In this document: positions 9,901 through 63,315 of the stretch, in pieces
How positions within the stretch are numbered: the stretch's first letter is position 1
Layout of the letters: every line of letters starts with the position of its first letter
Assembly: GCA_032158295.1 (NCBI GenBank)
Contig: CM063248.1
Span: 891,828 to 955,827 of the forward strand
Length of the DNA stretch: 64,000 bases
Reading direction: 5' to 3'
Origin: Pycnopodia helianthoides
Taxonomy: Eukaryota; Echinodermata; Asteroidea; Forcipulatida; Asteriidae
Program-made: the position numbers and the translations under genes
The notes under the pieces: generated by a model
What the model was told of the DNA's origin: nothing
Database searches by the model: none
Seen by the model: the letters and a program-made list of their open reading frames with translations, nothing else

Positions 9901-12900
9901 TGGTGATAATTTTCGTTATTAAAAAAAAATGGCACGGCAGACTCATGTCTTGACCATCGAGTCCGGAAACCTCAAGCTATTCCGGGATAATGATAATGTT
10001 CTATCTAATAATAATGTTCTATCTTTCCTCCCACCCCTACCCCAGCTGCAGATTTCTTCATGTCTATTTACCTCATCATAATTGGCTTCCATGATGTCAA
10101 GTTTCGTAATTTCTTCAACATGTACGCACTGGAGTGGATGCAGGGGTCGACCTGTAAGTTCGCCGGTTTCTTAGCCATGTTTTCCAGTGAAGTATCGGTC
10201 TTCATGCTTACATTCATATCACTGGAGCGCTTCATTTGTATCGTGTATCCCTATAGGCTTCACAGGTACGGATTTAAAATATTTGAGAACACTTTCATTT
10301 GATTATATCGTGTGTTTATTGAAAACTTAAGACTGTGGGCTCTTTGTTTACATCTAAACCGCCATCTATTGATACACAGAGAACTTGTTTTGTAAAATTT
10401 GGTTGAGGAGTGACGTCACATAATGAACACCATAAGGCAGAAACGTACATTGGTTTGTCACCGTGACGTGTGTTAAACTGTGACCTTTTTCGGAAAGTCA
10501 CTGGCTTCCGCAAAAACGGGTTACCAATATTATTTCATGCATTTATTGAGTGCATCATTGTCACAGAATATAATCACTAGGTAAAACCTGGACTAGCCCG
10601 ATTACACCTAGTGATTATAACCTGTATTAATGCACGACCGAAATGCACTCAATTTGTTTTATATAAGTCACACATAGGTCCTTGTCATTTGAATTGTTTT
10701 CACATTAAACACAAAAAAACAAATGTCTCTTCCACGCACTGAAAATTCCATTTCGAAAACCTCCGTCTAAACATCGTAAACGACTCAATGTAGACACAAA
10801 CCTTGTCCATCGTGACACGACTCAATGTAGACACAAACCTTGTCCATCGTGACACGACTCAATGTAGACACAAACCTTGTCCATCGTGACACGACTCAAT
10901 GTAGACACAAACCTTGTCCATCGTGACACGACTCAATGTAGACACAAACCTTGTCCATCGTGACACGACTCAATGTAGACACAAACCTTGTCCATCGTGA
11001 CACGACTCAATGTAGACACAAACCTTGTCCATCGTGACACGACTCAATGTAGACACAAACCTTGTCCATCGTGACACGACTCAATGTAGACACAAACCTT
11101 GTCCATCGTAAACGACTCAATGTAGACACAAACCTTGTCCATCGTGACACGACTCAATGTAGACACAAACCTTGTCCATCGTAAACGACTCAATGTAGAC
11201 ACAAACCTTGTCCATCGTAAACGACTCAATGTAGACACAAACCTTGTCCATCGTAAACGACTCAATGTAGACACAAACCTTGTCCATCGTGACACGACTC
11301 AATGTAGACACAAACCTTGTCCATCGTAAACGACTCAATGTAGACACAAACCTTGTCCATCGTAAACGACTCAATGTAGACACAAACCTTGTCCATCGTA
11401 AACGACTCAATGTAGACACAAACCTTGTCCATCGTAAACGACTCAATGTAGACACAAACCTTGTCCATCGTGACACGACTCAATGTAGACACAAACCTTG
11501 TCCATCGTGACACGACTCAATGTAGACACAAACCTTGTCCATCGTGACACGACTCAATGTAGACACAAACCTTGTCCATCGTGACACGACTCAATGTAGA
11601 CACAAACCTTGTCCATCGTGACACGACTCAATGTAGACACAAACCTTGTCCATCGTGACACGACTCAATGTAGACACAAACCTTGTCCATCGTGACACGA
11701 CTCAATGTAGACACAAACCTTGTCCATCGTGACACGACTTTGCCTTATTTTGGACAATTGGGCAAAGAACGATTATTTTGGGAACGACACTGCGAAGCGT
11801 TCAATAATAACCCATTTTGGACTCCAACATTAAATTGTGGGGCGTCGCAGCAGTATTCATGGATGACACGTGACGCGTGTTCCACCATTTAAATTACAAG
11901 GATCCATGGGTGTGGAATTATAAATTTAATTTCAATTTTTGTTTAGGTTGATTAATAGCGATACGTTTCCAAGATAACAGGTCACCGAGCACCAAAATCA
12001 ATTACCTCCTCCCAAATAGTTTAAAAGCTTATTCTGTTCCCACGTAGAATTGTTTTAAATTCTCAGCCAAGATTCACCTGAAAGTAATATGAACTCACTC
12101 ATCGGCATTGTATTGCACGAAAATGACTTCAAGGTGTTCAGTCTGTGGTATGATGTTATTGTGACTGTATTTTTCTGGTAATGAAACCAAGAGACCCTCA
12201 AAAGCTCTTAGCAGTAGCACTGTGTCCCGTACATGCCTGAAGATACCTGCGTAGAGAAGATGATGAAGAAGTAAAGATGAAGAAGTTCATTCCGTGTGAC
12301 ATTACAAAGTGACCCATTGGCACTTGTAAGTGTTTCTAATTTGTAATATTCAAGTTTTTTTCAACTGTTTCATTAAATACGTGATCACAAAAGTATGTAG
12401 GGGGCCTATATTTCTTTTTAACTTGAATTCGTTCTGTTTATTATGTTAAACAAACAGATTGACAAGCAAAGAGGCCACTGTTGTCATGACAATCATCTGG
12501 TTCCTGGGAGCCCTGGTAGCTTGGATCCCACTCATCAGCGTGGGTTATTTTGTTGATTTCTACGGCAGCAACGGGGTGTGTTTCCCGCTCCACATTCACG
12601 ACCCGTGGCTACCAGGGTGGGAGTATTCAGCGTTTGTATTCCTTGGGCTAAATGCAAGCTGCTTCTCTGCCATTGCCGTTTCATACACTGGTAACGTCAC
12701 TCAAGTGAACATTTTGTTGTCAAAATCATAAGTTTAAATAATGAGGGACTTTGAAACGATAGGTGGTTGAATGAGGTAGTAACATTGGCACACAATGCCT
12801 CCAGAGTGAAAGCACCATATCTATTCAATGATAGAAATAGCCGTGTTTATCTCATAGATAAAATAATATGGTGAGCCAAGGTGATTAGTATACGCAACGC

Positions 12901-25100: not shown

Positions 25101-28100
25101 GATTAACATTTAGTGGTATTTTCCATGAGACTAGTAACTTGATAATTGTTTTGAAATGTGTTTACTATCATTAGCAAAAATCGTTCCTTATTATAGCAGG
25201 TCTAAATGACCGACCGTATTTAAAGGCCCTGTACACTATTGGTAAGATCGAAAAACACAATGTTCACAAATTCACACATAACTTACATGATTTAAAGTAA
25301 GTAATGGTAGAAAGGGTTCCTTAAAATATTTCTGCCTAAAATGCTATCGTTTCTGAAAAATGAATAAAACAATAGTAATTATCGCGCGCGATAATTTGAA
25401 AAAACAGAAAACACATAAGATCTCTTTTCACTATTTTCTCGTGACCTCGATGACCAATTGAGCTCAAACTTTCACAGGTTTGTTTGTTCATGCATATGTT
25501 TAATCACACAAAATGTGGACACTGATTTTGAGCTGTTACCAAAAGTGTACAATACCTTTAAAACAAGTGTAACTGAAAAGTCTTATTAAAAAACATGATT
25601 AGAATGACATCTAAAAACGTGCTTACTTCTTCTGAAACTTTCATATAGAAAGACTCTTTTAGGTTAAAGGAACATTACAGAATTGGTAAGAAAAAAACTT
25701 GTAAAATATACTTTTTGATCACAGATTTACATAAAACTTACACGGTCTGATGATGATAGTAGAAAACATCCCTTGAAATATTTTTGTTTGAAATGTCATA
25801 TTTGATGAGAAATGAATAAACTAATTTTCCGATTGGAGTTTATCGCTCAGTGAGCGTTTTATTCATTTGTTGAATCTATATGATTTCATTCATGCAAAAT
25901 GTGTGATCGGTTTTTCACTATTTTCTCGTGACCCAGATGGCCGATCGATCTCAAACTTCTACAGGTTTGTCAGCTTATGTATATGGTGGATTACATAAAG
26001 CTCTTACACTGCCAGCAACTATTTTGTTAGCAAAAAACAATTCTGTAATGTTCCTTTAAACATCACTCTAGCTGGAGCTTCGGGAAATCTGTAGTTCGTC
26101 CTAATTTCTGTTGGTGAAAGTTATTTTGAATTTCACCAGTCTCAACAAGCATCTTTAGGCCTAACAAAAATGGGGATAATCTAATAATATTTTATGACAG
26201 CCTTCCTTTTACATTAGCGGTTTATTTATATTTATTATCATGTGTGGTTGTTCTCGTTGGGAACAGAGTTTTTGTGTTGGATTAACGATACTCAATCTCT
26301 CTTATATATAAAGGGGATGTCTTGGATAACATCTAGCGTAGATCTTATATACCGTCTGAACAGAGTTGCCATCGTTAACTTCATTGTCAGTTCTACTGCT
26401 CTGGTGAAACCAGTACTGGACTATGTTATCATTGAACCATACTTTGATGCTCTGGTAAGAAATTATCTTTGTAATCAATCTCGAGTGTAATCGAACGATG
26501 GGTCAATTAAAATAAATACCCTCAGTGAAGTTTGAATGGTACGTGTTTGCGTATGCTCTGGTGACTACTGGCGCCTTGTCTCTGATTTTCCTGGCTTAAA
26601 AACAACAATAACATAAAAGAATGTGGACCAAACGGACTTATCTTCAGTTCAACTCTGACATGTGCATTAATGAAACCTCACCAATCTGACCTGTGCATTT
26701 AATCCAATGAAACCTCACCAATCTGACCTGTGCATTTAATCCAATGAAACCTCACCAATCTGACATGTGCATTTAATCCAATGAAACCTCACCAAACTGA
26801 CATGTGCATTTAATCCAATGAAACCTACACCAATCTGACCTGTGCATTCAATCCAATGAAACCTCACCAATCTGACATGTGTATTTAATCCAATGAAACC
26901 TCACCAATCTGACATGTGCATTCAATCCAATCTGACCTGTGCATTCAATCCAATGAAACCTACACCAATCTGACCCGTGCAATCAATACAATGAAACCTC
27001 ACCAATCTGACCTGTGCATTCAATCCAATGAAACTTACACCAATCTGACCCGTGCAATCAATCCAATGAAACCTACACCAATCTGACCCGTGCATTCAAT
27101 CCAATGAAACCTACACCAATCTGACCCATGCAATCAATCCAATGAAACCTACACCAATCTGACCTGTGCATTCAATCCAATGAAACCTACACCAATCTGA
27201 CCCGTGCAATCAATCCAATGAAACCTACACCAATCTGACCCGTGCAATCAATCCAATGAAACCTACACCAATCTGACCCGTGCAATCAATCCAATGAAAC
27301 CTACACCAATCTGACCCGTGCAATCAATCCAATGAAACCTACACCAATTCGACCCGTGTATCCTAAACTATTCATTTCTGATTACGTTATTTTGATTACA
27401 GGGAGAACCTGATCCAATGAGAGCTTCAATTGAGATTCAATTCCAGACCACCATTGAATCGCCGGGTGGAGAGCTATTAGCACTGTACAATGCCACATCA
27501 CTTCAGTATATTGCACGAGACCAAGTTGCGGGCGAAAATAGCAGTCTCAACTTGGACCTCGACTATATCTACCCGGACGGGCCCCAGCAGTGTACATACG
27601 TAGAGTAAGTTTTAAAAGCTAAATACACCCGAATCAAGTTCCTTTTTTCACAGAATGTGGGCTCGAATCCATTTGGCCTCAGGAATATCAGGGCGAGCTT
27701 TAAACACATTGTGTGTATCCTAGAACCAAAGATTTCCACACAATGCAGGTTTTTTAGACATGACTTAAACACGAGCAAGAAAATGTTCTTTTTCTTGAAA
27801 ATGAAATAGTTTCTTATTCGAATTGAACTTCACCGTACGTTTATATGAACTCCAATGTTAGCATATTTTTATTAGCGTAAAGCGACTGGTTGATTGGGCC
27901 TATTGGGATCCTCAAAAAAAGGTTTTGGGGTTTTTTTCAAAGATAAACGTGACTAAAGTTAGGACATCTTTAACACACTATGGGTATTTCTGTTGTTTAG
28001 CCATTTTAGTTTTAAATGTCAAGTAATGAACCACAAGGGAAACTGACTGGGTAAATTTCAAATAGTATGGAGTTGAACAAAGAAAAATTTATTTGTTCGA

Positions 28101-41100: not shown

Positions 41101-44100
41101 AAAGAAGTTAAAAGCACAAAAACAATGAAACAACAATGAAACAAAATGTACAAGATTGTATTCTGGTATCCATTGCGAGGGTGTTTTGTACTGCTGTGTA
41201 TAATGCACGTTGTGCATAGGGAAAGTTCATGGTACAAAATAGCAGGGTGAATAGCTCTAAAATGCATGGTTTAAAACATAGGCCATATAACCGTTTAGTT
41301 TATGAATATTGCATGACCAACAATCCTCCAATCAAATGATAAGGATCTACTTGGTTGTTATGTAATTCTGTATTTTCCATGCAAGAATTCTCTCATTTAC
41401 AAACAGACTTGTTAAATAGTCTGTTTACGTCAAGGTGCAAGTTCCTATTTGACAGTGTTGGTCTTAAAGATCAATTTAGAAATGCTTTCATTATTTCCTA
41501 CAGGCGTCAAGAGGCTGAGAGTCAGGAGCGTTTGATCAACCAGCTACAGGTGACGTTTGCTGATGTTGGAGCTGCTAATCAGCAACAAGCTCAGGTAGGT
41601 TTCAAGGCTCACTTACATGTTTTCAACAAAACCTACTTCATTTCAGTGATCATTTGATAGAGACACATTGTATTTGTTTGCTGTCATTGAGGCCAAAGTG
41701 CAGAATAGGCAGTCATAAGTTTGAATCTGAAAACTCACTGATATTAAAGTTGCCACTAGTGCTAATCATCTTCAGAAATATTTCTGCCCAATTTGTAGTC
41801 TGTCGCTTACTTTGTTTGTTGCAAGCAACTATGCCAAGTATGAACAAGCACAAAATATCATAATTTAGTTGAACCCCTATTAACATAAACAGGCTCTTGA
41901 GGATGCCAGTAAAAGAGTCGCCAACCTAGAGGTTCTACTCCAGGACCGTAACTCCACCATATCAGAGGTCCATACACTGACTATCCTTCATGCAACCAAG
42001 CGAGGGCTCACTCCAAGAGCCTACTCTAACCCAATGGACTCTGAGCACACGGGTAGTGAATTGAAGGAGGTGCTGGACTGCTATGAGAAAGAGATAGAAG
42101 GGATGGGAAAGAAGATTGGGAAGGCAGAGAGTGCGTTGTCCGAAGCACAAGAGCAGTTTGCTGTGAGATGGAAACAGAGCGGAGAAGAGCAAAAGCAAAT
42201 GTTAGTCGTCAGGTCTTGATATTCTTCCTATTTTAATCTAATTTTTGATTGATTTCTCCTCAGAATATCATTAAGAATTTTATTAAGTAGCTTATAAAAC
42301 CAATATCTATCTTGTTTGGGGTGTCGATCAGTCCGTGTTCTCAATAAAAACTCGCTCTGTCAAAACAACCAAATCTCTTTTGTTAGACTCCTCAGTTTTA
42401 ATGGGTACACATACTCGCACATGCATTGATTTGTAGCCACAGTAAACCAAGGACTTCTCTTTGTTCTCCCAATGTTTGGACTTAGTTTTTGTTAGCCATA
42501 TCACCATTGGTTTTGTGCAGGAAAGCAAAGTGACAAAGTCCTTGGTTCTCTGAAAAAACCTTAATCCCTTTTGTTAAAGTCCTCGGTTTTATTGGGTAAA
42601 CACACACACAAACAAGCCCACAAATATAAAGATGACAATTGCACGGAAGTAACTAGTACACTTTGGGTACAGCCATGTTTAGTTGTACCTGCAAGTTTAC
42701 TAGCTATAGTTACTTCTTATTATCCACACCATACAAAGCTTCAAACTTCACTGACATTTGCACGAATGTTCCAAATACTTTTTATATATTTTCTGATTCC
42801 AGGTTACGTAGAATAAGTGAAGAGCATGAGGAACAATTGAGCGCAGCAACAGAGAGAGCGCTAAATGCTCGAAAGCAGACGCTGAGCCTTCAGTCGCAAC
42901 TAACACTCACACAGTATGTAATTCAACTAGTTTTTTTTTACGCATATGCAAATATAATAGGCCTACTAAAAGAGAGTTATTGAGCTTATGTTCAGTTGTT
43001 TAGGATTTAACTCAATGATGGAAACAGTGGTGAGTAAACTTCCTTTGTATTGCTGATATACCAGAGCTTGGTACGTCTTTATATAACTTGGCATAAGGGC
43101 TGTAGTGACCAGAGGGGTGTATGAGGGGGGACTCCCCCCCCCCCCCAATAATAATAATAAAATAGAAATTACAATAATTGGTTTCAGTCAGCATTCTTAG
43201 CCTCAGTTGGCAAATGAAGCACTAAATCAAGTGGACCAATAATTTTTGCTTTCCTTCACAAAAAAGTTTTGTTGCTTTGACATTATTGAATAGTGGGTTT
43301 CCGTTGAAATAGAACTGAAAAGAAATGCCAGTTTGCAACTTAGCTTCCATGTACCCTCTCTTGCTTTGCCCAGGATTAACAGGGTTAGGTTACATCAATG
43401 TGAACCTTTATATTCTTTATGTCATTGTATCTGAACATCCGTCATTGTTTACTGAAGGGAGCATATGCAGCAACAGCTTGAATTGAAGACTAGTCATGTT
43501 GCAGATTTGCAGAGCAAACTGGAGGAGCTGCAAAACAAGTCGGAGAATACAAGGAGCAAGCTGCAAACACAGGTAGTGTGGGAAGTAACTATTACTAATA
43601 TTGGTAATAAACTTTTTGTGCATAAGTAGCTCTTTGGAATTGGACCCAGTACCAAACCTCCTGAGTTTGAAGTAAGAAGATGAATAAGGGTTTTGACTGT
43701 GCATGAAGTCTTAAAAACTATCTCCTGAAGATAGTTTCCTTGTTGTAATGTTCATCACCACACATTGTTTCTGTCTTAGTGTGACTCATTAACGTCAGAC
43801 CTGCAAGCTGCCCTTAATCAACACCAAGTAGCTGGGGAGGAAAAGCATCAACTACTTGAGAAAATTCACAAACTTGAACTTGAACTGCAAGCTGCAAAAG
43901 TAAGTTTATCTCAATGCAGCTCTAGTATTGCTCCATCCAATTTCATTGCGAGTTTAACAGATTTGAATAGTGTCTGGTACGATGACTGGCTCAGTCACAA
44001 GTTAGCGATCAAATTTGAATTCCAGATTAGAGACCAGAGCTTTGTCACATGGTTCACGGCAAGCTTTTGCGTAGTTCAATAAAGACTGCAAGCATCCATA

Positions 44101-47100
44101 CATGATTCTGAGTTAATGTCTATGACATAGTGGTATCAGGCTAAAGCCCATCTGGATCTGGAGGTTGCTATTCAAAGCTTGCCCCAAACCATGTGAAAGA
44201 GCAACACTGTCTTTAGTCTGGGGAGTTCAATTTGAATGGTCACTTGGAACAATCAAGTCATTGACATTACTCCAAGTTAATTTGCAATGTACACTTGATA
44301 CATTGAAGCTAGACTAATTTCCTTTACTCAGCTCAGTGTAGTTTTACCTACATGATGTAACTATTTAAAGGCTCTGTGTTATGAAATGTGATTTGCAAGT
44401 TCTGTTCACACTGTGTACATGTATGACAGGAAATTATATACATAGTCTGGTGACTTGTTGACATAATAATTAGCGTCAAGTAATCATGATAACAGTTGCA
44501 CATATGGAACATGTCCTGAATGGTCTATTTACAAAAAAAACTACCTACTGACAAATGGGGATTTCTTTTGCATTCTAGAAAGGCATTTTCAAGTCCTTTT
44601 TTCAAAGAAATATTGGTTTGTAGTCGGTGTTCGATTTCAAGAAGTTTGTCAAATTCTTGTCTCAGGAGTCTACTGCTAAAGCTGAGGCCGATGTGATGTT
44701 AGCACAGGAGCAGAACAGCAAACTCTGTAACCTTGAGGAAGAGATGAAGATCAAGATAAATGACCTCAAGACCCAGCTGGACAAAAAGAGCAGTGAATGG
44801 GAGGAGTTAAGTAGGCTAGTTGAGGAGGCTAGGGAGCAGTCAGCAAGGCACTTGGACCAAAAGGTAAAGGGAAATATTCTTTCAACACTGAAAGACCATA
44901 ATTGAAAAAGATTCATCATCCCTTGATTGTGCTTTCAATGTGAACTCAGAATAGAATAGAACATATGGATTCAGATCACACGGCAGTAAAGATTTTGTGA
45001 AGTTCATCATTAGACATTCAAAATACTTCACAACCTCTCACGTCAAACCCAGAGGCCTATAATCATTCAGTGAACTGGTTAGTTTCTTTTTCCGACACTG
45101 GAACTATGATCGAGTCCTTGAAAGTCTTGGGCAGTCTGGCTAAGTTGAGCAACCAGTTAAAGATGCCGGCCGGAATATTGGCAAACTGATGTGAACAGCT
45201 TTGTAGAAAGCGTGGTGTGATCTGGTAAGGTTGTTGCAGCTTTCATGCCTGGTAGAAGTCACATGACCTCATCAGGATATAACACAAACGGCCGCTTTTG
45301 CTCTGAAACATCAGCTGCTGCACACCATGACCCAGTAACAAGAAATGACAGTACTTAGATATTAGGTGTCTGTAGATCTACATTAGCTCAAGGGTGTATA
45401 TACTGCAGTCATGATCATACAGCTAAATCAACACGGCAAGTCATTATGACCAACATTTAATAGTAATTGGTTTGATATCAGGCACACAGCTTGAAGACAA
45501 GATCTTGATGTCACTACACCACGAATTGTTGATCAAGAAACAAATACTGTCACCATAAACTGCTTTTTTTCTCGTAATGTCCGGTGATTGATCTTGCCTG
45601 TAAATGACAAATCTTAATTTGGGTGAGTGTTGTCCACCCAGGGGTCGATTTCACAAAACTCTTCCTAACTTAGGACTAGTCCTAGGCAATGCTAAGAGAT
45701 AGGACTAGTCCTAAGTACTGGTCCTAACTTAGGACTAGTCCTATCTCTTAGCATTGCCTAGGACTAGTCCTAAGTTAGGAAGAGTTTTGTGAAATCGACC
45801 CCTGGTTTCAGTAAAAAGAAATCCACAGCAGTCTGAGTACAAATACAAATGTTTAGGTCATCCATTTTATTGTAGAAACGCTGCACATTTGAAACAATTT
45901 TGGAACTGCAGGGCAAATGCCACGTTGTCTAGATTTAACCAACAGTCCAACCCGCTTACTTCTCTTCCTGCGTTGACCTCTTGTATGACATCATGATCCG
46001 CCATCTTTGATTTCCTCGTTCACTAAAGATAGTGTGCTCAATGTTATCTAATTCCGCAAAACCTCAGATGGCAAATTAATCCACGGTTAGCACCATGATT
46101 AATCAGAAGTTCTTATCTATCATGCTGATATATTGCTAACCTGTCACTGCTAAGAATAAAGGACAAATAACAGTTGACCGGTGCCATGACAACAGTGTGA
46201 TTACTTCATTTTCTCAAAATTGGTCTGTGTGGGTTTGTTGTTTGTTTGTTTGGTTGTTTTGGTTTTTTGTGTTTTTTGCAGGGGGTGAGGAGGTTGTTTG
46301 TTGCCAATTTGCTTTTAAATAAGTATTTTGGCATAATAAATACAATTTTTACAGGTGTTCAATTACACCACAAACCAGGCCTAGAACTTGAATTCAATCA
46401 GGTAAAGCTAAATAATAAACATTGACCTTCATGAAATCCTAGGCTTCATTTACTTAACATGTCCCTGAAGATTTAGTACTTAACATAGAATTAAGTATCT
46501 GACATTTTGACTTTGGTCTTTCATGCAGGTTACATCGATGCAGGAAGATCACAAGCAGAGAATTACCTCTTTGACCCATGACCTGACCTCTCAGAACAAT
46601 GACCTGATCAGCAAGTACGACACCCTCATGGCCGAGTTCACACAGAGAGATTCTGAACACCAGGACCTGCTACTGTCCAGGGAAGACATGAGAGCGAAAC
46701 TGGAGGAAGTCCAGCAAGAATTTCAAAGAGTGATAGAGGAGAAGGGGAATATTGCCCTCAACCTTGCAGAAAAAAAACAGGAGCTAGATGTGATGCAGAG
46801 AGAGAAGGTTCAATATCTGTCATTTCTGGAGGATAAAAACATTGAGCTTAGTCAAGCTCAGATTCAGAAAGATCAACTCCATGTTCAGGTTTGTATGTTT
46901 TTAGATTAATCTTACTGGTGATTTATGTTTAGATCTATACAGGCTGTGTTCATGCCATTTGGAAAAATATCAGTTTGAAACAATATGACAAAGTCTGTGA
47001 GGCCATTTTCATCTACTAGTGCGTTACACGGCGTGTGATCAATTTGCGAATGGGGTTTCTGATGTTTACGGTCGACTGTTTCGTAACAGAAAAGGTGTTT

Positions 47101-50100
47101 TCAACTTAGAATAGTTATAGACAAAAGACATATTTTCATGTGATTGGACAGGTCTGTATCATGTCTTGAGTGATTGGACAGGTCTGTATCATGTCTTGAG
47201 TGATTGGACAGGTCTATATCATGTCTTGAGTGATTGGACAGGTCTATATCATGTCTTGAGTGATTGGACAGGTCTGTATCATGTCTTGAGTGATTGGACA
47301 GGTCTATATCATGTCTTGAGTGATTGGACAGGTCTATATCATGTCTTGCGTGATTTGACAGGTCTGTATCATGTCTTGCGTGATTGGACAGGTCTGTATC
47401 ATGTCTTGCGTGATTGGACAGGTCTGTATCATGTCTTGAGTGATTGGACAGGTCTGTATCATGTCTTGAGTGATTGGACAGGTCTGTATCATGTCTTGAG
47501 TGATTGGACAGGTCTGTATCATGTCTTGAGTGATTGGACAGGTCGGTATCATGTCTTGAGTGATTGGACAGGTCTGTATCATGTCTTGAGTGATTGGACA
47601 GGTCTATATCATGTCTTGAGTGATTGGACAGGTCTATATCATGTCTTGCGTGATTTGACAGGTCTGTATCATGTCTTGCGTGATTGGACAGGTCTGTATC
47701 ATGTCTTGAGTGATTGGACAGGTCTGTATCATGTCTTGAGTGATTGGACAGGTCTGTATCATGTCTTGAGTGATTGGACAGGTCGGTATCATGTCTTGAG
47801 TGATTGGACAGGTCTGTATCATGTCTTGCGTTATTGGACAGGTCTACATCATGTCTTGAGTGATTGGACAGGTCTGTATCATGTCTTGAGTGATTGGACA
47901 GGTCTATATCATGTCTTGCGTGATTGGACAGGTCTGTATCATGTCTTGCGTGATTGGACAGGTCTGTATCATGTCTTGAGTGATTGGACAGGTCTGTATC
48001 ATGTCTTGAGTGATTGGACAGGTCTGTATCATGTCTTGCGTGATTGGACAGGTCTGTATCATATATTGAGTGATTGGACAGGTCTGTATCATGTCTTGCT
48101 TGATTGGACAGGTCTGTATCATGTCTTGCGTGATTGGACAGGTCTGTATCATGTCTTGAGTGATTGGACAGGTCTATATCATGTATTGAGTGATTGGACA
48201 GGTCTATATCATGTCTTGAGTGATTGGATAGGTCTATATTCCGGACTCGTTTTAATTCCAGGTGAATGAGCGAGAGGAACAGTGTGCGAGATTGAAAGAG
48301 CAGACATCAAGTATGGCCCAGCTAGCTGGGGTAGCCAGCAAGGCTAGTGAAGACTGGGAGCAGGAGCGAGAACAGATGAAGAGAGGACTACAGGAACTAA
48401 CAAAGGTGTGTTACTGGCTTCCTTATGATAGGTGCTTCTGATAATGTCATCAGACTAGAGTGCCCTCACATAGAGATCAACAGAAGGTTGCTCATTGGCA
48501 CGTCTTGTTGTCAGTTCTTATACAAGGCTTAAAATTAACACTCGACTTGCCTCAGGTAATTGTTTTTATCTGGAAGTAAGTGATTTTCCAAAGGCGATAG
48601 CTTGATGGGTAAGTGACTTGAGTTAAAAATTATAATGAGATTTGATAAAGTAACTTTAAATTTTGGAAAATTCAAGGATAGGTAAGTGCCCCCCTCTCCC
48701 CAAAAAATATTAATAATAAATAAAAGAATAATAAGAATAGTATTAATTTATTGGCTTGTACAAACTGTTTCATCAAGCCAGTTCAATCGTACCTTTATTG
48801 CAATCTTTCTTTTATATCCAAGATTCCAAGAAGATAAAAATCAGGGATACATGTATATGGAAGAAGTTGCAATTTTCTAGTTTACTTTAGTTGATTTGTC
48901 CCCTTTAATTGAAGCCATGAGTATGTTTTTTTATTTCTAACCTTTACCAATTTGAAAAGACAGTGATTCTTTCAAGAACTCTTGTTTGTACATGCATTAA
49001 TCTCACAACATCTTCATTATCAATAATAAGGAGCTCAAAGAATTGAAAAGTCAGCAAGAGGCCGTCTTGAAGAAGCTGAAGATACGAGAGAAGAGGCTGC
49101 GAAACGTTGAGGAAGATAACAAGAGATTGCAGGAAGAGATCCAGGGTACAGCTAGAGAGTCTAAGATGATCGTAAGGGGCAAAGAAGAGCTAGAAGCTGA
49201 ACTCAAACAAGCTAAGACACAGGTATACTACAATTAGGAGTTTACGGTTAGGTTTTTTAAATGCATATCTATGACGGACCTAGACCAGTCAACAATGTTA
49301 TCTCTTTTCATGTAATTGTAGAAGCATCAGAGTCTCACATTTTGATAGTTTTGATGGATTTAATATTTCACACAAAGCCTAATCAATTAATGGTAAGTTA
49401 AAAAAAAATTGTATTAATGTGTATGGCCTGTATCGATGTTGTTGCAAGTAGTTTTAGTGTTGAAAGTTGCATTTTGGCCAGCACTGTGACTATATGTCTA
49501 ATGACTTTTGCATGCAAAAGTTTGAGTTGTTTTGGTCGATCAAAAAGTTTACAATAATAATCATATGCAATCATAAATACTGTACCACTCCTTCTAGATT
49601 GATTTGCTGACTAGCGAGCAAGACAAGATGAAGGCGGACATCATGGAGAGAGAGCAGAGTTATCAAAAAGACATCTCTAAGTATCGGTCCAAGATACAAA
49701 CTCAACATAGAGATCTGACTGCAGCCCATAACACCATCCAGGCAACGGTTGTCACAGACGGTAAAGGTAAGGGTGGAGACAAGATACAAACTCAACACAG
49801 AGATCTTACTGCAGCCCATAACACCTTCCAGGCTACGATAGTAGCTGCTATTTTTTTTATATATATAGAAGTCATGCTCTCTAATCTACTTCTCTAGTGC
49901 TTAGGATACCTTGTGCAGAAGCTTCTTGCAAATCAATTACGCCAGTGATTACAAAAGGTGGAATTGCCATTATTACAATATGCCTCAAAAAGTGTGTTTC
50001 AATGTTTCTGACCTTTTGGCTCTCGACCCTGATTTTGGAGACAAAAACATTAGACTGCAGGACTTGTTAAGTTGTTTGGCTACTGGTCTATTGCTATTAT

Positions 50101-53100
50101 TACAAGACCCTATGAGTGGTTCAGTGATCATTTTGAACCATGTGTCAGGTTAGGAAGGCTCACTTATTAACCTGGGGTTAATTTCATACAACTGTTAAAA
50201 CTATTTAAAAGTACGTAAGCACACCAAAATTATGCACACCAAAATAAGGTAACCAGCCAACATACCATGTCACATTTACCCACAGTGGCTGGTACCCTGC
50301 TAATTTTTTCTGTAAGAAAATTTTAAGCAGCTTATAAAATGGACTCAGTGATCAATTTCATATTGCTGTTAATGCAGAAAACTGGTTTTAAACGGGAGAG
50401 GAGACCAAGTTACAAACAGAAGGACTAAAATCTCTTCAAACCTAGTTTGTAATGTTTTTGTTTTTTTCTCTCTCTCTATTTCTCTGACCCAATTGTTTGA
50501 TACAGCTGTGAAGGTTGCAGAGAGTATGCAGCAGCAGGTTACAGCAAAGCGTAGTGAGATTGATACACTACAAAGTGATATACACTGGCTCAAAGAGTGC
50601 CTGGATATTACAAGAAAGGTAGAGTTATAAAACCACAAGCTTTTCCGTGCAGGTTAATCGAAATATAGTGTGTTTAGAACACTGAATAATCTTGACATTC
50701 TCCCTTCCTGGGTGTCTAGATGTTATCATGATGGTAAGTCATTACATCACATATTTGCACATCTGCAGTACCTGAATGATTGGCTACTTCCGGCCCCTAA
50801 GCTGGTGTATTGCTGTATGTAATTTGTTCATTTTATTGTTCAAAGGTATTTCTTAAGACCTTATGTCTTTGCAAGACATGTGAAAAGCAAGTCAAACAAA
50901 ATATTTTGAATACATTTTTTCTAAAAGACAACTAGTTTGACAGCATTTGCTATGGGTTTCTAGTAATTGTTGTGAACCAGTTTGAGTATAGTGGGCATGG
51001 CTCACAGTGAAATTACATCACACTTAGGAACAGGATGAGGACAATGAAAAGTAAACCTGCAGGTTAAGCTGAACAGCCTAGAGGGCTACTCTTACAAGAG
51101 AGAAGACATTTGCCCATTTATGTCAAAATCTCTAGATTCCCAGTGATGTAAAGAGTCTGTAATCCTCTAAAACAGGGATGAGAAACTAGGGCTACTTTTA
51201 GAAACGGACCATTGCTAGAAGAAGACATTGCCAGTTTATGTCAAAATCTCTAGATTCACAGTGATGTAAAGAGTCTGTAAATCTTCTAAAACAGGGATGA
51301 GAAACTAGGGGCTACTTTTAGAAACGGACCATTGCTAGATTAAGACATGGCACAGTTTAAGTCAAAATCTCTAGATTCACAGTGATGTAAAGAGTCCGTA
51401 AATCCTCTAAAACAGATGAGAGACTTCAGACCTTTTTATGTCTGCCTCTGTCTCAGTGCCCTGGCAAAAATAAAGTATCTGTTTTTTCTTCGGATCATTA
51501 GAAAGAAGTCATGCCTTTTTGTTCTTCTTCTTCTCTAGTGCTGAGGATACTGTTTCCAAAAGCTCATTGAAAACAATAACTCTGGGGGTTACCATCATGC
51601 CTTCTAACATTGTTATTCTAGTTTCAGACGTGTTTGTCAGTAATGATTCTCAACCCTGTTTAAAATGTAACACCCTGAAAGTTCAGAGGGTTTCATCCCC
51701 TGACAAAGAGAACATCGCTGGCAATTCTTTAAAGGATTTTTCATATTGTTCAAATCTACCCCTGTTTATCATACAATGAACTTTGAATATTCACAGGAGA
51801 AATCAACGTTAGTTGGGGAACGAGACCAGTACAAGGCCCAACTCACTGAGATGAGCAGAAATATGACAAATTTAACGGAGGAGGTTCAGAGCTTGGCAAG
51901 ACAGAGGGCTGAACAAAGATCAGTCATCATTAAACTGGATGAATCTCTGAAAAAGGTGCATATTAACATTCATTCCAGTCCTTTGGTGTTCAATAAACTT
52001 TTTTTATTCAGAAAGTTGGCATGAAAAACATTTTAGTTTTGGAACAGGTTTTGTGCATCCTACAATGCTTAATTGCCTAAATAATTAATGAAGAGTGGAT
52101 TTGGGTGCATTTTTTTGTTCAACCCTGATGTACCCAACTTTTCCAAAATTCTGTTCAGGAAGTTGTGTGACTTTGTATGATATGGTTCTGCAGGCCCAAG
52201 AAACACTTTTTATGTATGATTTTGTATGTGTCCTGTTTACTGTCAAAAGACAACAGAGATATAGTCTGATGTCAACAGGTGAATTACTACTTGAGTATCC
52301 TAGGGGTAAGGTGCAGCACTCTTTTGGAGATTGCACCTTTGTTTTGGTTCCTCCTAAGCTGTGGAATGCACCACCTCCTTTTTTTACTTGGGGTTTAATT
52401 CTCTGGGGTCTTTCAAGTCTAAATTAAAGACTGGTTTGTTTAGGGAGGCATATAGTCTGTAATTACATTTGTTGATTACTTTTGTGTGCATTGCCAGATT
52501 TTACCCTCCTTTATTCTTTACTTTACTTTGTCTATTCCAGTGCTTTGTTCCCCCCCTTTTGTAGGGGTGAGAATGTCTGCTTTTTAATAATTTGTTTGGA
52601 ATGTGTAATTTTATGCTGCATCTGTATGTAGTTGGTGCATTTTTGTATTTTTTAGGCATTATTGTATGCATTTTGATGTAATTTTTATTGTTTGTATTTT
52701 GATGTAATTTTTAATGGTATTTTTATTGTAATTTGTGCCTTTGAACATCCTCGGATGGAGAGTTTGCATTATAAATGTAGCAAATTAATGAATTTCTTAT
52801 CATTGTAACATTCATAGCGATCTTATCCAAGTCCAAACATTTGGGTGTTGAGTTACCACAGAGTGAAGTATTTTGGAGGATATGAAAGGTTCTCAAGCCA
52901 AAGTATACTAGGGGTTTACGATTTAATGTGACAGAAACATTTCTGAAGACGATTGGTACCATTCCAACTTTCATACCAAAGGAATTCACATCTTATCGAT
53001 CAACATATTATTATCTTATATTTATCAATACTTTACTATTCGTTCAAGTTGAAAATATGTGTTATTATATACTGGCTGGAGTAAGACATACCATTTCATT

Positions 53101-56100
53101 TTTAAAATATTCAAAATATTGTTTGGATTTTATTTTTAAATTATTGTTGGTTGATGATGTTGGTTTGCATTCTAATTCAGGCTACCATGGACCATGGGGA
53201 GTGTAAAGCAGTTATAGAGAGGCAGGAACAAGACATAGCAAGGCTGAAACTCAAGCATCAATTAGATATCAAGGTCGGTACCAGCCTACTTCATACAATA
53301 CCTTGCTGAGTGTCTAATTTTAAACCGGGGCTCAATTTAATGGAGCTGCTTACAGAATATTGTGCTTTACAGTCCATAGATTGACATGCTATAAAGGGCT
53401 CAGTAAGCGCAGAATTATGTGGTTATTGCAGCGCCTGAGCTTTAACCTGAATGTGTGATTGATGGCAATGTATTTAGTGAATGTTAATATGAGCGAGAAT
53501 GTTAACTTTATCAATCTTTTCTAACAGGAATTACAACGAGCAAAACCCTACACACTTCAAACAGATATTCCAACAAAAGTGAAAATCCAACTAAACACAC
53601 CCACTAAACATGGAACAGTCATTAAAACCACTGCCCCCAACATTGTCCAAACAAAGTCCAGCAGATTAGAGCAGATCAGAAAACTGAATGATACTGACAA
53701 AAAGCCATCTGGGGGAGTCAAACTTATTGATTCAAGCACAATGAAACTAGCTGGTTTCAAAACGGAGACAGTAACTGCAGAGAAAACAGTTGAAGACCAC
53801 CCAGTTTCTTGTAGAAAAGGTACCCAGACGACGGTCAAGCAGCCGAACGATACACTGAGAAGGCTGATGACCGATGAGGATTTGAGGGTGCTACTTCTTG
53901 AGATGCAGAAGGTTGTTTCAGGTCAACCGACCCTGGCCAAAGAGCCAAAGAAAACTGCAAAATCAGGTGCTGGTATAAATGCAGCTTGGTCAATGGATTC
54001 ACTTAACACCAGGTAAATAAGATGCTCAATGCTGTAGAAAGCCATTCAGTCTTGTGCAACTTTTATTTATTTAGTTTTCGTTTTATTTATCAGTTTGATG
54101 AATAAGAAAAGTTTTTAAGCCTTCGCAAGTCTTGTGCTTATTTGGATGGTAGAGTGCATAAAAGCATTTCCTTCACACATTTCAGTACCTGGTAACTTGA
54201 GGTTGTCAGAAGTGTTCTTAGTGCATAAACTCTAATGTATTGTTTATAACATTGCTGAAGATCACTTTTGGTTTGGTCTATGGGTCACCAAGTAGGATGA
54301 GCTCAATGCTGCTCCAGCAGCAGTTTTAAGTGGGGGGAGGGGAGGGACTCTGATAACATTGCTATGCCTGACCTAATATTAAGCGCAAATTGTTGTTATT
54401 TGGGCCTGCAGTACCATATTCCACAAAGGCAAACAAGGTTCTGAAATAAATAAACTTATAAATAAACTTTTTGATAAACCACTTTCAGATATTGTAAGAT
54501 TACAATATATAATACACCACAAACCCATCGTATAGTGTAATGTACCTAATAATGCTGTGTTATTATTAAAGCCTAAATTAGCTGGCAGGGTGTAAATTGG
54601 CTGGTGGGTACGATTTGTGGCTGGTAGGGTGGCTTCTGATTTTCTCATTGTCTAAGTTCCCTGTTTATTTGACTAGATATACCCCAACTACTGTGAATTA
54701 TACCAGAGAATCAGGCTACAACACCAAATCTGTGGACAAACAGAATGGAGGTAGGTGGGTACAGTGGGAAACAGTGGGTATGTAACAACCGGTAGGTGGG
54801 TACAGTGGGAAACAGTGGGTATGTAACAACCGGTAGGTGGGTACAGTGGAAAAGTGGGTATGTAACAACCGGTAGGTGGGTACAGTTGGAAACAGTGGGT
54901 ATGTAACAACCGGTAGGTGGGTACAGTTGGAAACAGTGGGTATGTAACAACCGGTAGGTGGGTACAGTGGGAAAAAGTGGGTATGTAACAACCGGTAGGT
55001 GGGTACAGTGGGAAAAAGTGGGTATGTAACAACCGGTAGGTGGGTACATGGGAAACAGTGGGTATGAAACAACCGGTAGGTGGGTACACTGGGAAACAGT
55101 GGGTATGTAACAACCGGTGGGTATGTAACAACGGTAGGTGTGTACAATGGGAAACAGGGGTATGTAACAACCAAAGTTAACAGCCCATCAAGGCTTGATT
55201 TCACAAGATTCTATTAAAAGATTCACCTGACGAAGAATTGTTATATTGCCATAGTGATTTGACATTTACTTAGCAATTATATACTTTGATACATATCTTG
55301 AGATCAATCTTAGCTCTTTGTGAAATCAAGCCCAGGCTACTTAAAGAGAAAGTAAACGATGAGTTATTATCAAATGGAAAGTTTCAATCAGAAAGCTCAC
55401 TGATTATAAAGGTTATACCGGTTTCAGACCTTTTTATCAAAGTAAATTTTATTTCTCTTTCAATTTAATCCAGGTATGACAGTGCCATTATTAACCTCTT
55501 CCCCGGTGTTGGAACACCGACACCAATGCCGGACAACCTGAGTTATTATCCTCCGTCCCAGAGTTCAACAACCCTGGCGGTAGGGTCATTACACCGGAGC
55601 CAGATTTCTTTCAAAGGCCCCTGTCACCGGTCGCAAACCTTCTCAGCGTGTCCCCACAGGATACGAGTGACTTCGGCTTGGCAAATAATAACACTTCTCA
55701 AAATAATAATAGTCAGTCAGGCCCCTTAATGTTTACTCCTTTCGAGAGTCGAGGGAAGAGTAGGACATCAGACATTTTGAGCTTAGATTCAATAAGCACT
55801 TGTAGCAGTACTACAGAAAGTTCTATTAGCCTATCATCATCATCATCCCGTAAGTATTATTTGCATAGTTCTATCATCTTTTTGTGAATTGGTTTTGTGA
55901 GGCTTACTAGTGTCTTGCTGTACAGTTATTGTATATATTTGATTATTCTCCATTACTGCACATTTTACTTTCTGCATTTTGGTTTTCATTTAGACCCAGT
56001 TGATGTCCAGGACCATCATTGGAACTATGGGTTCAGTGTTTGTGCCGGATTGACTGCTGTCCCTAAATTCAAACATTTTAACTACCTATTTATCATCTTA

Positions 56101-57665: not shown

Positions 57666-59926
57666 CAAATCACTAAAGCCATCTCCCTGTTATAATTGAT
57701 GAGATGATTGCCCAAGAAGAGTTGAAATATATTATGGACAGACTTTTTGATTAAAAAAATGATGGTTTATGCAAGCTGGGTTTTTTATTGTTAGTACACG
57801 GAGCATTGTTTTTCGTTGAAGTTGAATCTAAGTGGGAAAAACTTCAATGCCGTACCATTACTTGGAGAAGATTACCAAGATTTATCCAGGTTTCTTTGCA
57901 CATGTCAAACATACACAATGCTCAATTACAAAAATTGAATTGACTCCACCAACCATTGAGGGCAACATACTATAATCAGTCATTTTATTATGGAGTAGAA
58001 ACAAAAGTACCTTCTCTGTCAAATTATCAAGGGGTTTGTTATCGATCAATCCTTTTGATTACTATAGGTCCTATATTCACAAATGTGTATTTATATTTAA
58101 GTTAACATTTCACATATTCTAAACATTTTTCACATTGCCATCCACATAACATGGTGCTGTATTTTTTTAAATATAATTATTACATGTATTTTTTTCACTT
58201 CAAAGTTTTACTCGAGTAAATAGGGAAAATAGTTGGCCATGGAGCACTTCTACCCAAGGCTCATTAAACTCAAGCAAAATACACTGCTCAACAAAACTTG
58301 CTGAGCAGAATTTAGATCTTGCTTGATTACTTATTTTGCTGATCTAAGGCGAGTTTGTGTGCTAAACAGATCTATGGACTTATGTATTTAACTCGGAATC
58401 AAAACGTTCAGAATTTGTCAATGCTTCAAAAATCAATCAAAAATAGTAACATCTTGTACTAAGACTACGTGTAGGGTGGTTTTATAGTAAGACTTTTCAC
58501 TCATTAATAATAGTATTCAGTAATGCAAAAAAATAAAACAAATAATAGATGCATTTGCATCACTTAAATTCAGTATATATTTGTCTTCCCCTACAAAACA
58601 CCAAAGATGAACATTTGTCATTTAGTAATGTTATGCAAATAAAACGGGAATATGTTTTTCTCAACCATGCAAAGCCTCAAATTCTACATCAATACAAGAA
58701 TAGTTCTAGTTTCTTGGAAGTGATCTTCTTACTCATAATATTTTTTTTTGTATACCCCATGTCTATGAATTTTCTTTGAATTGAATCATAACATTTCAAT
58801 AACAATAATAACAAGAATAATATTGTAAGCATTTATATATTGCGTCCTTGACAATGACCCAGATGGCGTAACTAATAGTTCAAGACTGGTAACCATTAGA
58901 TTACTTGGCAAGCTATACTCATTGAAAGATAAAGATTTTCTCCTAAACTTGTTTTATTTTAAGAAAGGGTTTTACCTGAATAATCCAAAAGTACCATTCT
59001 ATGTACAAGGGTTTTCTCGATCAAAATTATCTTTAAATATTGTACACTAGGAAAGCTCATTAACCCTAGATTGTATACTGCTGTACATCTTTTGGGGAGT
59101 CTGAAATAAACATGCTTTAAACATAAATACATGAGTCTTGTTAAATTTACACAGTTTTGGTTATTTTTTACAGTGATTTTTTTACTACAATTTTATATCT
59201 TCATAGCTGTGTCAAATCACAAACGTATTACATGGAAAGTACTGATGGAGCATCAAAGTTTTCACTATGTTTATGAGATACGTAAAGTTCTACTTATAAG
59301 CTTACTTCCAAGACAGAGCAATTACAAAGATCAAGAGCGATTCAATAAATTAATGACACTAGAAATACCATAAAACAAACATTTCAATATGGATTTGAAA
59401 ACATCACTTTTAACAAAAACCAAATTGAAGGGGATTAAAATACGACAGTAAGTTCTGAAATACTAAGTACGTTATTTTGAAAATATATGAGAATATATAC
59501 ATTTTGAAAATCTGGCTTTGTGAAACGACCAGTAAAATCCTCGAAAGAACTATACAAATATCACTTTCTAGATTTAAAATCGGGTGCTAAAGGCAGTCAA
59601 ATTCAATTTGTTTCATTATTATACACCTGTATTAAAAAGTTATTGGAATACATGCTCTTAATAAAAAGATGCAGCATTTTATTATTGTTATAAATTATCA
59701 GTACATTCAATACGGTAAATCCATAGTGCAGAAAATGTGATTATACGCAGTGGATATTCCACACTGACCATCTAAACCCACGTCATGCTAGAAAGCTGAT
59801 AGAAGAACAATGTCCGTCTCGCAAAAACCTGACACGATTAACCTGTACTGGTTTCAATTTCTTGCACTATTATAGTTGATTATTCTGTTTTTGACAATTT
59901 TTTCAACTGTGGTCAAGTTTAGAGCT
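57666..59926. other. Region between the convergent CCDC158 and sHSP genes
   Basis: AT-rich and without conserved coding sequence. It should hold the 3' UTRs of both genes. Plus-strand signals for CCDC158 include ATTAAA near 57750 and AATAAA near 59105. A short TGCTGAGCAGAATTTAGATCTTGC stretch near 58300 recalls the GGGCTCAATTTCAT repeat family. Confidence 0.5.
59678..59683 (-). terminator. Candidate polyadenylation signal for the sHSP gene
   Basis: TTTATT on the plus strand is AATAAA on the minus strand, about 245 bases after the sHSP stop. It is the nearest canonical signal I see, and no downstream element was tested. Confidence 0.4.
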
Positions 59927-60790
59927 TTAACAATTCAAAGTGCAGTTATAACAAAACAGTTGTTGGAGTTTAGTCTTCTTTTCCGGATCTGGAATCATGA
60001 CTTCTTGCTCAAAGGGTGCGTTGTCATCTGACTGGCTCGTATTGTGTGGTGCTTTAATAGTCAGCACTCCATCCTCATTCAAAGTTGCAGTCACCTTGCT
60101 CCTATCGGCTCTCTTTGGTAGGATGTGGTGTTCCACGAAGTACCGTCTACAGCTTCGCTCTAGATGGGGATGATGACCAAGACTGGTCTGTCGTGCCTTC
60201 CCCTCTGCTTCCACATACAAATGTCTGCCAACAAGTCGGATACAGATATCCTTCCTCTTAAACAGCTTCATCAGTTCGAAAGTCGCCTGGTAGTCGGTGT
60301 CAGAGTCACTGTTACTGTCGCTGTCGCTGTCGCTGTCACTGTAGTCATCCCATCCACCTGACATCGGATGACATCGGTGACGTCCAAAGCTGCCACCGTG
60401 ACCGAAGCTGCCACCGCGACCAAAGCCGCCACCGCGTCCGAAGATTCCTCCGCGACCAAAGCTGCCACCGCGACCAAAGCTGCCACCGCGACCAAAGCTG
60501 CCACCGCGACCAAAGCTGCCACCGCGACCAAAGCTGCCACCACGACCGAAGATTCCTCCGCGACCAGAACCTCTAGGTTGGAAGCCACCATGTCTGAACC
60601 CAACATGACCCGGTCCGTACCCATCATGCCCGTACGTCATGAATCCCAGAGTGTCTTCACCAGGTTCTTCATCTGCAGATGGATCGCCATTGCATCCCCA
60701 CCAATCACGACCCATCTCTCCTTGGTGTGGATAGTATCCGTAATCGCTGAAAACCAGGGTGAATGTCGTCCGTAAACAATCCGTATGCAT
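59927..60790 (-). CDS. Small heat-shock protein (alpha-crystallin domain) with FGRGGS repeats
   Basis: 287 residues from ATG 60790, with no intron in the coding part. Domain order: a short aromatic N-terminus (DYGYYPHQ, RDWWG); about eleven copies of FGRGG(S/I) in an 18-bp DNA unit (about 60400-60560); an acidic SDSDSD tract; and an alpha-crystallin domain from YQATFELMKLFKRKDICIRL to TLNEDGVLTIKAP, with the hallmark A-T-L-N-x-DGVL-x-I motif near its end. The C-terminus has VMIPDP but no clear I-x-I motif. Small heat-shock proteins are ATP-independent chaperones that hold unfolding proteins in the cytoplasm or nucleus. FG/RGG and SD repeats are typical of RNA-binding or phase-separating proteins and are not usual in this family. 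An open frame extends to 60856, but only through a TTG codon, so I use the ATG. The longer Ser-rich extension is not supported. Confidence 0.88.
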   Translation of the reverse strand: MHTDCLRTTFTLVFSDYGYYPHQGEMGRDWWGCNGDPSADEEPGEDTLGFMTYGHDGYGPGHVGFRHGGFQPRGSGRGGIFGRGGSFGRGGSFGRGGSFGRGGSFGRGGSFGRGGIFGRGGGFGRGGSFGHGGSFGRHRCHPMSGGWDDYSDSDSDSDSNSDSDTDYQATFELMKLFKRKDICIRLVGRHLYVEAEGKARQTSLGHHPHLERSCRRYFVEHHILPKRADRSKVTATLNEDGVLTIKAPHNTSQSDDNAPFEQEVMIPDPEKKTKLQQLFCYNCTLNC

Positions 60791-60894
60791 GCTGGGGAAA
60801 TGAAACCTCCAGGATAACAGTGAGAACGAGGAGGAGGAGGAGGATGAAAGTGACAATAATGGTGATGTGATTTTCTCTCACTAGTTGCCATCAT
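60637..60894 (-). other. Overlapping upstream ORF ahead of the sHSP start
   Basis: Two ATGs in a row at 60889-60894 open an 85-codon frame that passes the sHSP ATG in another phase and stops inside the sHSP coding region. No conserved domain is seen. If it is in the transcript it would reduce initiation at 60790; alternatively, the true start is downstream of an unrecognised intron. Confidence 0.4.
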
Positions 60895-61080
60895 GCAAAA
60901 AATACACCGTTAACTGCACAAATAATGAAATCAACGACAAAGTCAAGCACCACAATTTCACCAACGAAGAATGCCGTTATACCTGCCAGTCACCTTCTAA
61001 ATTAAACGAATTCCAGGCACCGTTTCCTCGAACACGAAAACGTCGAAACTGAACTGAAAATCACAGGCCCATGTGTCCTC

Positions 61081-61088
61081 TTTATATA
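61081..61088 (-). promoter_or_regulatory. TATA box of the sHSP gene
   Basis: TATATAAA on the minus strand, about 290 bases before the sHSP ATG, fits a core promoter with a transcription start near 61055. Upstream GAA/TTC triplets (for example GTTCGAACGACGAAC near 61130) do not have the 5-bp spacing of a canonical heat-shock element. Confidence 0.55.
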
Positions 61089-61089
61089 G

Positions 61090-63315
61090 TCAAGTTGTAA
61101 TCAACGTTTATAAAACGATTTGGACGTTCGAACGACGAACATAGAGAAAAAATGTATAAATAAACTTTTGAACAACGAACATAAAACGTTTTGAACATTT
61201 TAAAGGTCGACAACAACAGCAGATCCGTTTCAAAAGAAATCTGAAATTATTCACGTTTTAGTGTCGACTGCATGGGCAGCAAATATTTAGTTATTTCCCG
61301 GCTAACAATCACGTAGCAATATTTTGTTATAAATGTTTTTTAGGAATACTTTTTTCTGAGTATTATTATTATTATTATTTAAATAATATTTAGACAAAAC
61401 TTACAATAAATATATATTTACAGTATACAGTATTATAACGCAATAATGTGGAAAACGCAACCATGTTGCGTAAAATGAATGGACTTTGAATATGGACCTT
61501 GATGTTCGGGTATTTCCCCAGTCCAACTAAGTTGATGACGCAAGCATTTTCCATAAACATTTCAGAGCCAACACTCCCGATCCCACAAAAGAGATTCACA
61601 CATGGTTGTACCCGCAATTTTTTTATTTATTTATAGTTTCTTCTTATAAACATTTTACGAGTTTGTAGTGACCTATACCGACAGCAGGTACCTACACATT
61701 ATCACGACGAGCTCTGTTTACAGTATTACGCACGACAACGTTTGCACAACGAATCCGAAGTGCAGTCACCGCCCACTTTGTGTACTATTGACAAACCAAT
61801 ACATGTATTTTGATTCCATTTGGTTAGACCCGTATCGGGTTTCACACAATCGACAGCTGGTCTCCATGGTCTTCCATGTGAGCTAAGCCATGGCCTTGAC
61901 ATTCAGTTGGGTTTATTGGTAAACCATAACTCAGAGGTAATAGAATGGTACATCTTTGGTTTTGGGTATAGGGTTATAGACCTTTCCATTGTTGATAAAC
62001 AAACCGCGCTGGTTGGCATGGACGGCCGAATGTTGGCAAAACATTCAATCGTGTTAACAGACAATGTGACAAAATTCATCACTTTTGCAAATTTTTATTT
62101 GACACATTAATACATCCCATGGTTAGTTGCTTTGTTTCCAACAAATTCAACAGTATTTTTGAATATTTGTGTAACGTTATTCAAACTGTTTTTGCTTTGC
62201 ATTTATGGCTTTCCATAGTTTTCCAACCTTGGTTGGCGAAAACTCGGACTGAGACGTTGCAATAGAAAGGTCTATAGCACCAACCGATCCGATTAACTTC
62301 ACAACCGGCTGCTAAAACGGCTGTTTTTCGCCCCAAGCGTATTACACTGGTCCCCGACACATTACAACAGACTGGTCCCCTCTCTTTATCCTTGCGGTCT
62401 GACAGGCCCAATGATTTCATTAGATAAACTTGCAGTGACGTAAGCTTTCCGTATCTGTGTTATGATTGGTCCGCTCCGAAGGGACGTAGCTTGTCAGCTA
62501 CCCACTTTCGATCGTCTGCTGCATGCACGTGCGCATAATTGTTGGTATTTGTTGTTTTATACAATGTGTAATGTGTACGTGTGTATAGTAATAGACATTA
62601 TGCAAATGACGTCATTTGAGGAGGGCGCCCTTTCTTAGAGGTCAAAAGGAAGGGTCAAATATTGGTCAATCCTAGCTGTGCGCCGCGCGTACAAATCTGT
62701 GCGTTTGCATATCATCGGCTTACCTCTAAAATGGCGGTTTGATGACGTTAATGCATAAGGTCTATAGACTATGAGTCTATATCTGTGTGAATTGGATGCA
62801 AGGTCAAAGTACATCTGGCAGGATCCCACCAGGCGCTTAAGGCCGGTATCCGAGCCTCGAAGTGTGACGTCAGATGTTCTGGCTATAGTTGTGCACCATC
62901 ACTCGAAATAAAGCTAAATAACTTGGGCTAAAATTTACAAAAAATCGCGCAAGTTCCCCGTAGAATAGGTCAACTGTTATAGGCCTAGATCTACCGAAAA
63001 TATTATATTGTAGCCATACATTTTTTTAAAATTATGAATAGACTGCGTATTTAATAATAAATTATGAATGGTCTTTAAATATTGATGCTGGAAATTCGGG
63101 TTTTCCCCCAGTTCAACTCAGTTGATGACGTAAGCATTTTCCTGTTTTCTCGAGCAACGGTCAGAGTGTTCCAGAAAGGCTAACACCTTTTATGGCATAC
63201 CATTGCAAAACCGACGTCAAATTTACACGCTTGGGTGATTTATCGTCTGAAATGCAAGCTGGATTGGAAATAATAATTACTCCTTTGGCGATATACAATC
63301 TGGTGAAGTTCAGTA
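61090..63315. other. Upstream of the sHSP gene, no further gene seen
   Basis: There is no recognisable coding sequence. A dispersed pair is visible: TCGGGTATTTCCCCAGTCCAACTAAGTTGATGACGCAAGCATTTTCC near 61507 and its relative TTCGGGTTTTCCCCCAGTTCAACTCAGTTGATGACGTAAGCATTTTCC near 63095. A small ATTATTATT repeat lies near 61360-61380. Confidence 0.5.

Follow-up and report, generated by a model that had tools for sequence, protein, structure and literature searches.

On the minus strand of a 64,000-nucleotide stretch of the Pycnopodia helianthoides genome (GCA_032158295.1, contig CM063248.1; the window, below, means this whole stretch) lies a gene for a small heat-shock protein in which the alpha-crystallin domain stands behind an arm of arginine-glycine-glycine (RGG) repeats and a tract of acidic serines. 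The same layout is found in predicted proteins of two other sea-star genera, Patiria and Acanthaster, and we believe from these sequences that there is a real sub-family of small heat-shock proteins with an RGG-type arm in all three. Flexible arms of this type are known from droplet-forming proteins that bind RNA, and by analogy with them the layout hints at a chaperone with a built-in address label for RNA droplets. The initial annotation of the window had proposed the fusion itself. That the architecture is common to two other genera, and that the N-terminus is frame-disrupted in the window sequence, goes beyond it.

The domain and the arm

All features of the gene given below lie on the minus strand. 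Positions 59927-60877 are one open frame of 316 codons from stop to stop that spans the repeats, the serine-aspartate (SD) tract and the alpha-crystallin domain without a break, so the claim that an RG/RGG arm and an acidic tract share a frame with a small heat-shock domain holds. From the first in-frame ATG, at 60790, to the stop there are 287 amino acids (59927..60790). Another ATG of this frame is at 60715, and translation could start at either. The interval originally assigned to the protein, 60290..60790, does contain the repeats and the SD tract, but the alpha-crystallin domain (60304-60026) falls mostly outside it.

The alpha-crystallin domain (residues 163-255, 60026..60304) is identified by PF00011 and by sequence and fold matches. 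PF00011 matches with an E-value of 1.3e-11 (44.9 bits against a cut-off of 20.8), and HSP20 is the sole Pfam family at E <= 1 in the open reading frame, with most matches weaker than about 0.1 removed by the filters of HMMER. A sequence search of solved structures gave 8 distinct sequences at E <= 0.01, all of them small heat-shock proteins with HSPB6 and alpha-A crystallin foremost. By fold, Foldseek agrees in 13 of 13 matches at E <= 0.001 and VIA-align in 49 of 50 rows, HSPB6 and alpha-A crystallin being again among the proteins matched. The AlphaFold model places seven strands within residues 167-266 and no secondary structure before 167. Small heat-shock proteins form oligomers, act as ATP-independent holdases and as a rule carry a C-terminal I/V-x-I/V motif. 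The candidate here, a putative docking motif, is V-M-I at residues 264-266 (59993..60001), in a strand predicted at 261-266; the Patiria protein has V-Q-I after the domain and the Acanthaster protein V-Q-V.

There is one substitution in the domain that may matter. Glu220 (60131..60133) aligns to the arginine of F-H-R-R-Y in HSPB6, a position where arginine is kept in the aligned HSPB6 and zebrafish alpha-A sequences. Glutamate stands there in each of the three sea-star-type proteins in which the stretch is present (window, Patiria, Acanthaster); P0004, a further relative, is without the stretch and is left out of this count. The arginine of F-x-R-x-Y is frequent in small heat-shock proteins but not strictly defining. 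We take the position to be Arg120 of alpha-B crystallin, whose change to glycine causes disease. With glutamate where arginine is usual, the dimer interface of the sea-star sub-family may differ.

The arm is built of 10 tandem 18-bp units (60389..60568), found by Tandem Repeats Finder (TRF; score 275, period 18, 10.2 copies, 86% matches) and read in translation as FGRGG(S/I/G)-type repeats. FGRGGS accounts for six, FGRGGI, FGRGGG, FGHGGS and SGRGGI for one each, and a degenerate FGRHRC follows. An earlier count of about eleven FGRGG(S/I) was right about the tandem repeats and slightly generous about their number, since there are 10 units and 7 of them fit that pattern exactly. The RGG repeats are far beyond chance: the 287 residues hold 9, and the maximum in 10,000 composition-preserving shuffles is 6. 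A pattern search modelled on the published definition of the glycine- and arginine-rich (GAR) motif (PMC9957100) picks out residues 72-127 (60410..60577), which are 56 amino acids with 10 RG. A GAR domain counts as long when it exceeds 50 residues and has 10 or more RG/RGG (PMC9957100), and the window protein reaches both thresholds.

Half of the ten units are identical in their DNA, and the remaining units differ from this common form by 9 silent and 5 replacing changes. The silent changes (9/14) exceed the 26-29% expected (P 0.003-0.006). The array looks recently grown, as the initial annotation had supposed from its near-identical 18-mers, and among the three genera its long regular form is seen only in the window protein.

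Between the repeats and the domain lies the acidic serine tract SDSDSDSDSNSDSDTD (residues 151-166, 60293..60340). The CK2-type consensus is S/T-x-x-D/E, and the tract holds 6 such sites. Its coding sequence is also repetitive, a 12-bp array of 4.2 copies by TRF.

Relatives in other sea stars

We found two annotated relatives, both uncharacterised and both from the order Valvatida: LOC119727424 of Patiria miniata (P0002, 330 aa) and LOC110976105 of Acanthaster planci (P0003, 328 aa). They have a common order of parts. A start rich in His and Pro leads into a tryptophan-acidic patch and then an Arg/Gly/Phe-rich arm, and the alpha-crystallin domain comes right behind an acidic serine tract. They resemble the window protein in this order, in the glutamate at the usual arginine position and in a divergent domain that is about 49% identical to that of the window (48.5% over 103 aligned residues in Patiria, 48.9% over 92 in Acanthaster). 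They differ in having the His/Pro-rich N-terminus in frame and a longer C-terminal tail beyond the domain.

Their arms are also less regular, with 8 and 6 RG in the whole protein against 10 in the window protein. In the arm itself there are 8 arginines in 55 residues and 8 in 51, compared with 11 in 67 in the window. Six-residue periodicity reaches 0.82 in the window arm, while the best values in the other two are 0.44 (at 5 residues) and 0.33 (at 11 residues). The GAR pattern, counted in the window, Patiria and Acanthaster proteins and leaving out P0004, falls below the long-class thresholds in P0002 (31 residues, 6 RG) and P0003 (11, 3). On these comparisons the arm is conserved as a composition and not as an array.

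In the predicted protein P0004 (128 aa) the arm is short and Gly/Arg-rich, and there is a tract that reads DSDSDSNTD. In shared columns P0004 is closest to the window protein (58%; the figures for the two annotated proteins are 43 and 40%), and it diverges from the family in the middle of the domain. We read this departure as perhaps a frameshift, in either a decayed copy or an assembly error.

The whole-ORF protein search gave one match at E <= 0.001 among the best 7993 candidates by shared words. A two-sequence profile with the low-complexity arm omitted gave three at E <= 0.01 among 3370 candidates: Patiria, Acanthaster and P0004. With the query cut to residues 138-286, none of 62 candidates reached E <= 1e-5, and since this search missed even the Patiria protein its negative means little. 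It is important to realize that "sea stars only" describes the searches made, not nature. In viral contigs 11 stretches fitted a pattern for relatives and none was confirmed, and phage records gave no match to the protein; a sea-star gene is not expected in either. The initial annotation would have counted it against its own reading if the architecture had already been described as common in the family. The layout does recur in the Patiria and Acanthaster database predictions, but among the literature matches listed no description of it appears.

The relatives also bear on the N-terminus of the window gene. The probable ancestral N-terminus, MATSERKSHHHYCHFHPPPPPRSHCYPGGF (60802..60891), lies in another frame than the repeats and is recognised by similarity to the orthologues, which start MAPNEKHKG and MAPSEKKKG. 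Set against the first 130 residues of the orthologues, its frame has a similarity that only 2 of 500 and 1 of 500 shuffles reach, while the other two frames are at chance. In the next 28 codons no frame stands out (the best is reached by 43 of 500 shuffles). A weaker check looks at the start alone: when the 1,555 ATG-led nonamers of the window are compared with how the two orthologues begin, MATSERKSH comes second. Frame-change alignment at penalties of -12 and -8 places one or two changes within 60737..60789; the alignment to Acanthaster takes two, that to Patiria one or two. The loosest penalty, -5, needs three and four, spread from 60883 to 60731. The cause may lie in indels of the assembly, in true frameshifts or in a short intron that escaped recognition. 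Because the probable N-terminus is in another frame, the coding sequence is not seen intact as a whole.

What the arm may do

We tentatively favour a holdase addressed by its RGG arm and held by a phosphorylatable acidic brake, a reading for which our confidence stops a little short of even. The N-terminal arm would be long and disordered, with its His/Pro-rich start, its Arg/Gly/Phe section and its phosphorylatable acidic serine tract. Its arginines and phenylalanines would bind RNA as well as those arms of RNA-binding proteins that are aromatic or rich in RGG, and in this way the chaperone domain would be drawn into ribonucleoprotein (RNP) condensates. These could be stress granules or the nucleolus, the latter being proposed because the motif is Phe-rich. 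Inside, the domain would keep aggregation-prone clients soluble. The acidic tract may fold back on the RGG arm and tune recruitment, becoming more negative once a CK2-type kinase phosphorylates it, and the strength of recruitment would be set by the number of repeats. If so, the RG content that varies across three genera would give a natural dose series for the question of whether RGG valence sets the partitioning of a chaperone. Sea stars have accessible embryos.

The rival we take most seriously, though we think it somewhat unlikely, is that the Gly/Arg/Phe arm is a neutral or near-neutral low-complexity spacer grown by replication slippage. The protein would then be an ordinary cytosolic holdase whose arm aids only solubility or oligomer size. 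In its favour, the array is a tight 18-bp tandem in which 5 of 10 units are identical, and the length and regularity of the array are not common to the other two genera. Tandem duplication is also common here, as the many other arrays in the window indicate (49 TRF rows, some of them overlapping rows of one array). However, Patiria and Acanthaster both have a similarly Arg/Gly/Phe-rich arm in the corresponding position, and there are fewer replacing changes among the units than expected.

It would be a different objection, and a rather improbable one, if the window copy were a decaying gene or pseudogene whose frameshifts severed the N-terminus, so that no RGG-chaperone is made from it. The frame changes speak for this at every penalty used, as does the departure of P0004 from the family inside the domain. 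Against it, the 287-codon frame is open through repeats and domain, two in-frame ATGs lie at or after the break, and a domain about 49% identical to those of other genera runs without a stop. Assembly indels would look alike.

The weakest proposal, which we consider very unlikely, gives the arm a structural or metal- or mineral-related role in place of an RNA role, and likens its His/Pro-rich and Gly-rich segments to those of matrix or silk-like proteins. Gly/aromatic repeats are indeed found in matrix proteins too, and His and Pro are very abundant at the N-termini of the orthologues. Against it, we see by eye no hydrophobic signal peptide in P0002, P0003 or the window N-terminus, and long RG/RGG arms punctuated by Phe are characteristic of RNA-associated proteins of the nucleolus, of which nucleolin has acidic segments too (PMC9957100).

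Several points nevertheless weigh against the RGG-addressed holdase. In worms three proteins accumulate in the nucleolus even without their Phe-rich RG/RGG domains, though some of these domains are needed for sub-nucleolar sorting (PMC9633708). The other genera do not keep the clean array (the motif has 6 RG in Patiria and 3 in Acanthaster), so a function that depends on numerous regular repeats may not hold generally. The test of silent changes counts 14 changes, some shared between units and so not independent, and as evidence that the amino acids are of importance it is no more than modest. The AlphaFold model was built from three sequences and has low overall confidence (mean pLDDT 48.1). 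The window copy, with its N-terminus disrupted, may be misassembled or decaying, and the behaviour of a relative as close as P0004 may mean that damaged copies exist. We looked upstream, over 60700-61700, for a heat-shock element and found no clear one.

A stronger version of the holdase reading is doubtful in our opinion. It would make these proteins a lineage-specific sea-star chaperone class that joins an RGG/Phe condensate address, an acidic kinase-tuned brake and an alpha-crystallin domain. Each would be a one-molecule G3BP-type switch that guards RNP condensates during stress, and the length of the minisatellite would tune how strong the address is from species to species.

The rest of the gene region can be described briefly. 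A TATA-box-like site lies upstream of the gene (61083..61088) and an AATAAA poly(A)-signal-like site downstream of its stop (59678..59683), each a consensus match only. Elsewhere in the window, positions 47140-48239 hold a 30-bp tandem array of 36.7 copies that is open on each strand (401 and 382 codons) and sits between coiled-coil-like plus-strand ORFs. A plus-strand run of ORFs at about 41343-55884, several of them coiled-coil-like by eye, perhaps represents exons of one large gene; its one weak Pfam match, Cast (E 0.0014), is below the cut-off. Further minisatellites of 34-41 bp units in 7 to 26 copies lie at 10772-11739, 4715-5676, 26669-27358, 54750-55122 and 2886-3429, which makes the region rich in tandem duplications.

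Comparison with known systems

To our knowledge HspB8 has no RGG array or SD tract, E. coli IbpA has no RGG arm, and G3BP1/2 are not small heat-shock proteins. Each of them still resembles the window protein in part. G3BP1/2 resemble it in setting an RGG domain beside an acidic region, and there the acidic region inhibits the disordered RGG domain until RNA competes (PMC6882752). IbpA is a bacterial precedent for RNA binding by a small heat-shock protein, likened here by description and not by sequence: it represses its own translation via its own mRNA through a conserved arginine (PMC10474464).

The arm is like those of the long GAR nucleolar proteins fibrillarin, nucleolin and GAR1, with their Phe-punctuated RG/RGG arms of more than 50 residues and, in nucleolin, acidic segments (PMC9957100). 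The partner domains differ. Fibrillarin has an rRNA methyltransferase (PMC9957100) and nucleolin has RRMs, whereas Pfam finds HSP20 alone in the window protein and no RRM or RNA-modification domain beside the GAR motif. Phe-rich RG/RGG motifs have been found in nucleolar proteins and Tyr-rich ones in P-granule proteins (PMC9633708).

The nearest worked example is HspB8, a small heat-shock protein with a disordered, arginine-bearing arm. The likeness is one of role by analogy, and we claim no kinship of the arms. Its predicted disordered region holds 10 arginines, and these bring the alpha-crystallin domain into stress granules and into droplets of FUS, while a form with all arginines changed to glycine stays out (PMC8510580). 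On the open question of how a chaperone gets into a condensate, the answer from HspB8 is thus a handful of arm arginines (PMC8510580). The arm of the window protein resembles an entire RGG domain that has an acidic partner and is fused to a chaperone domain.
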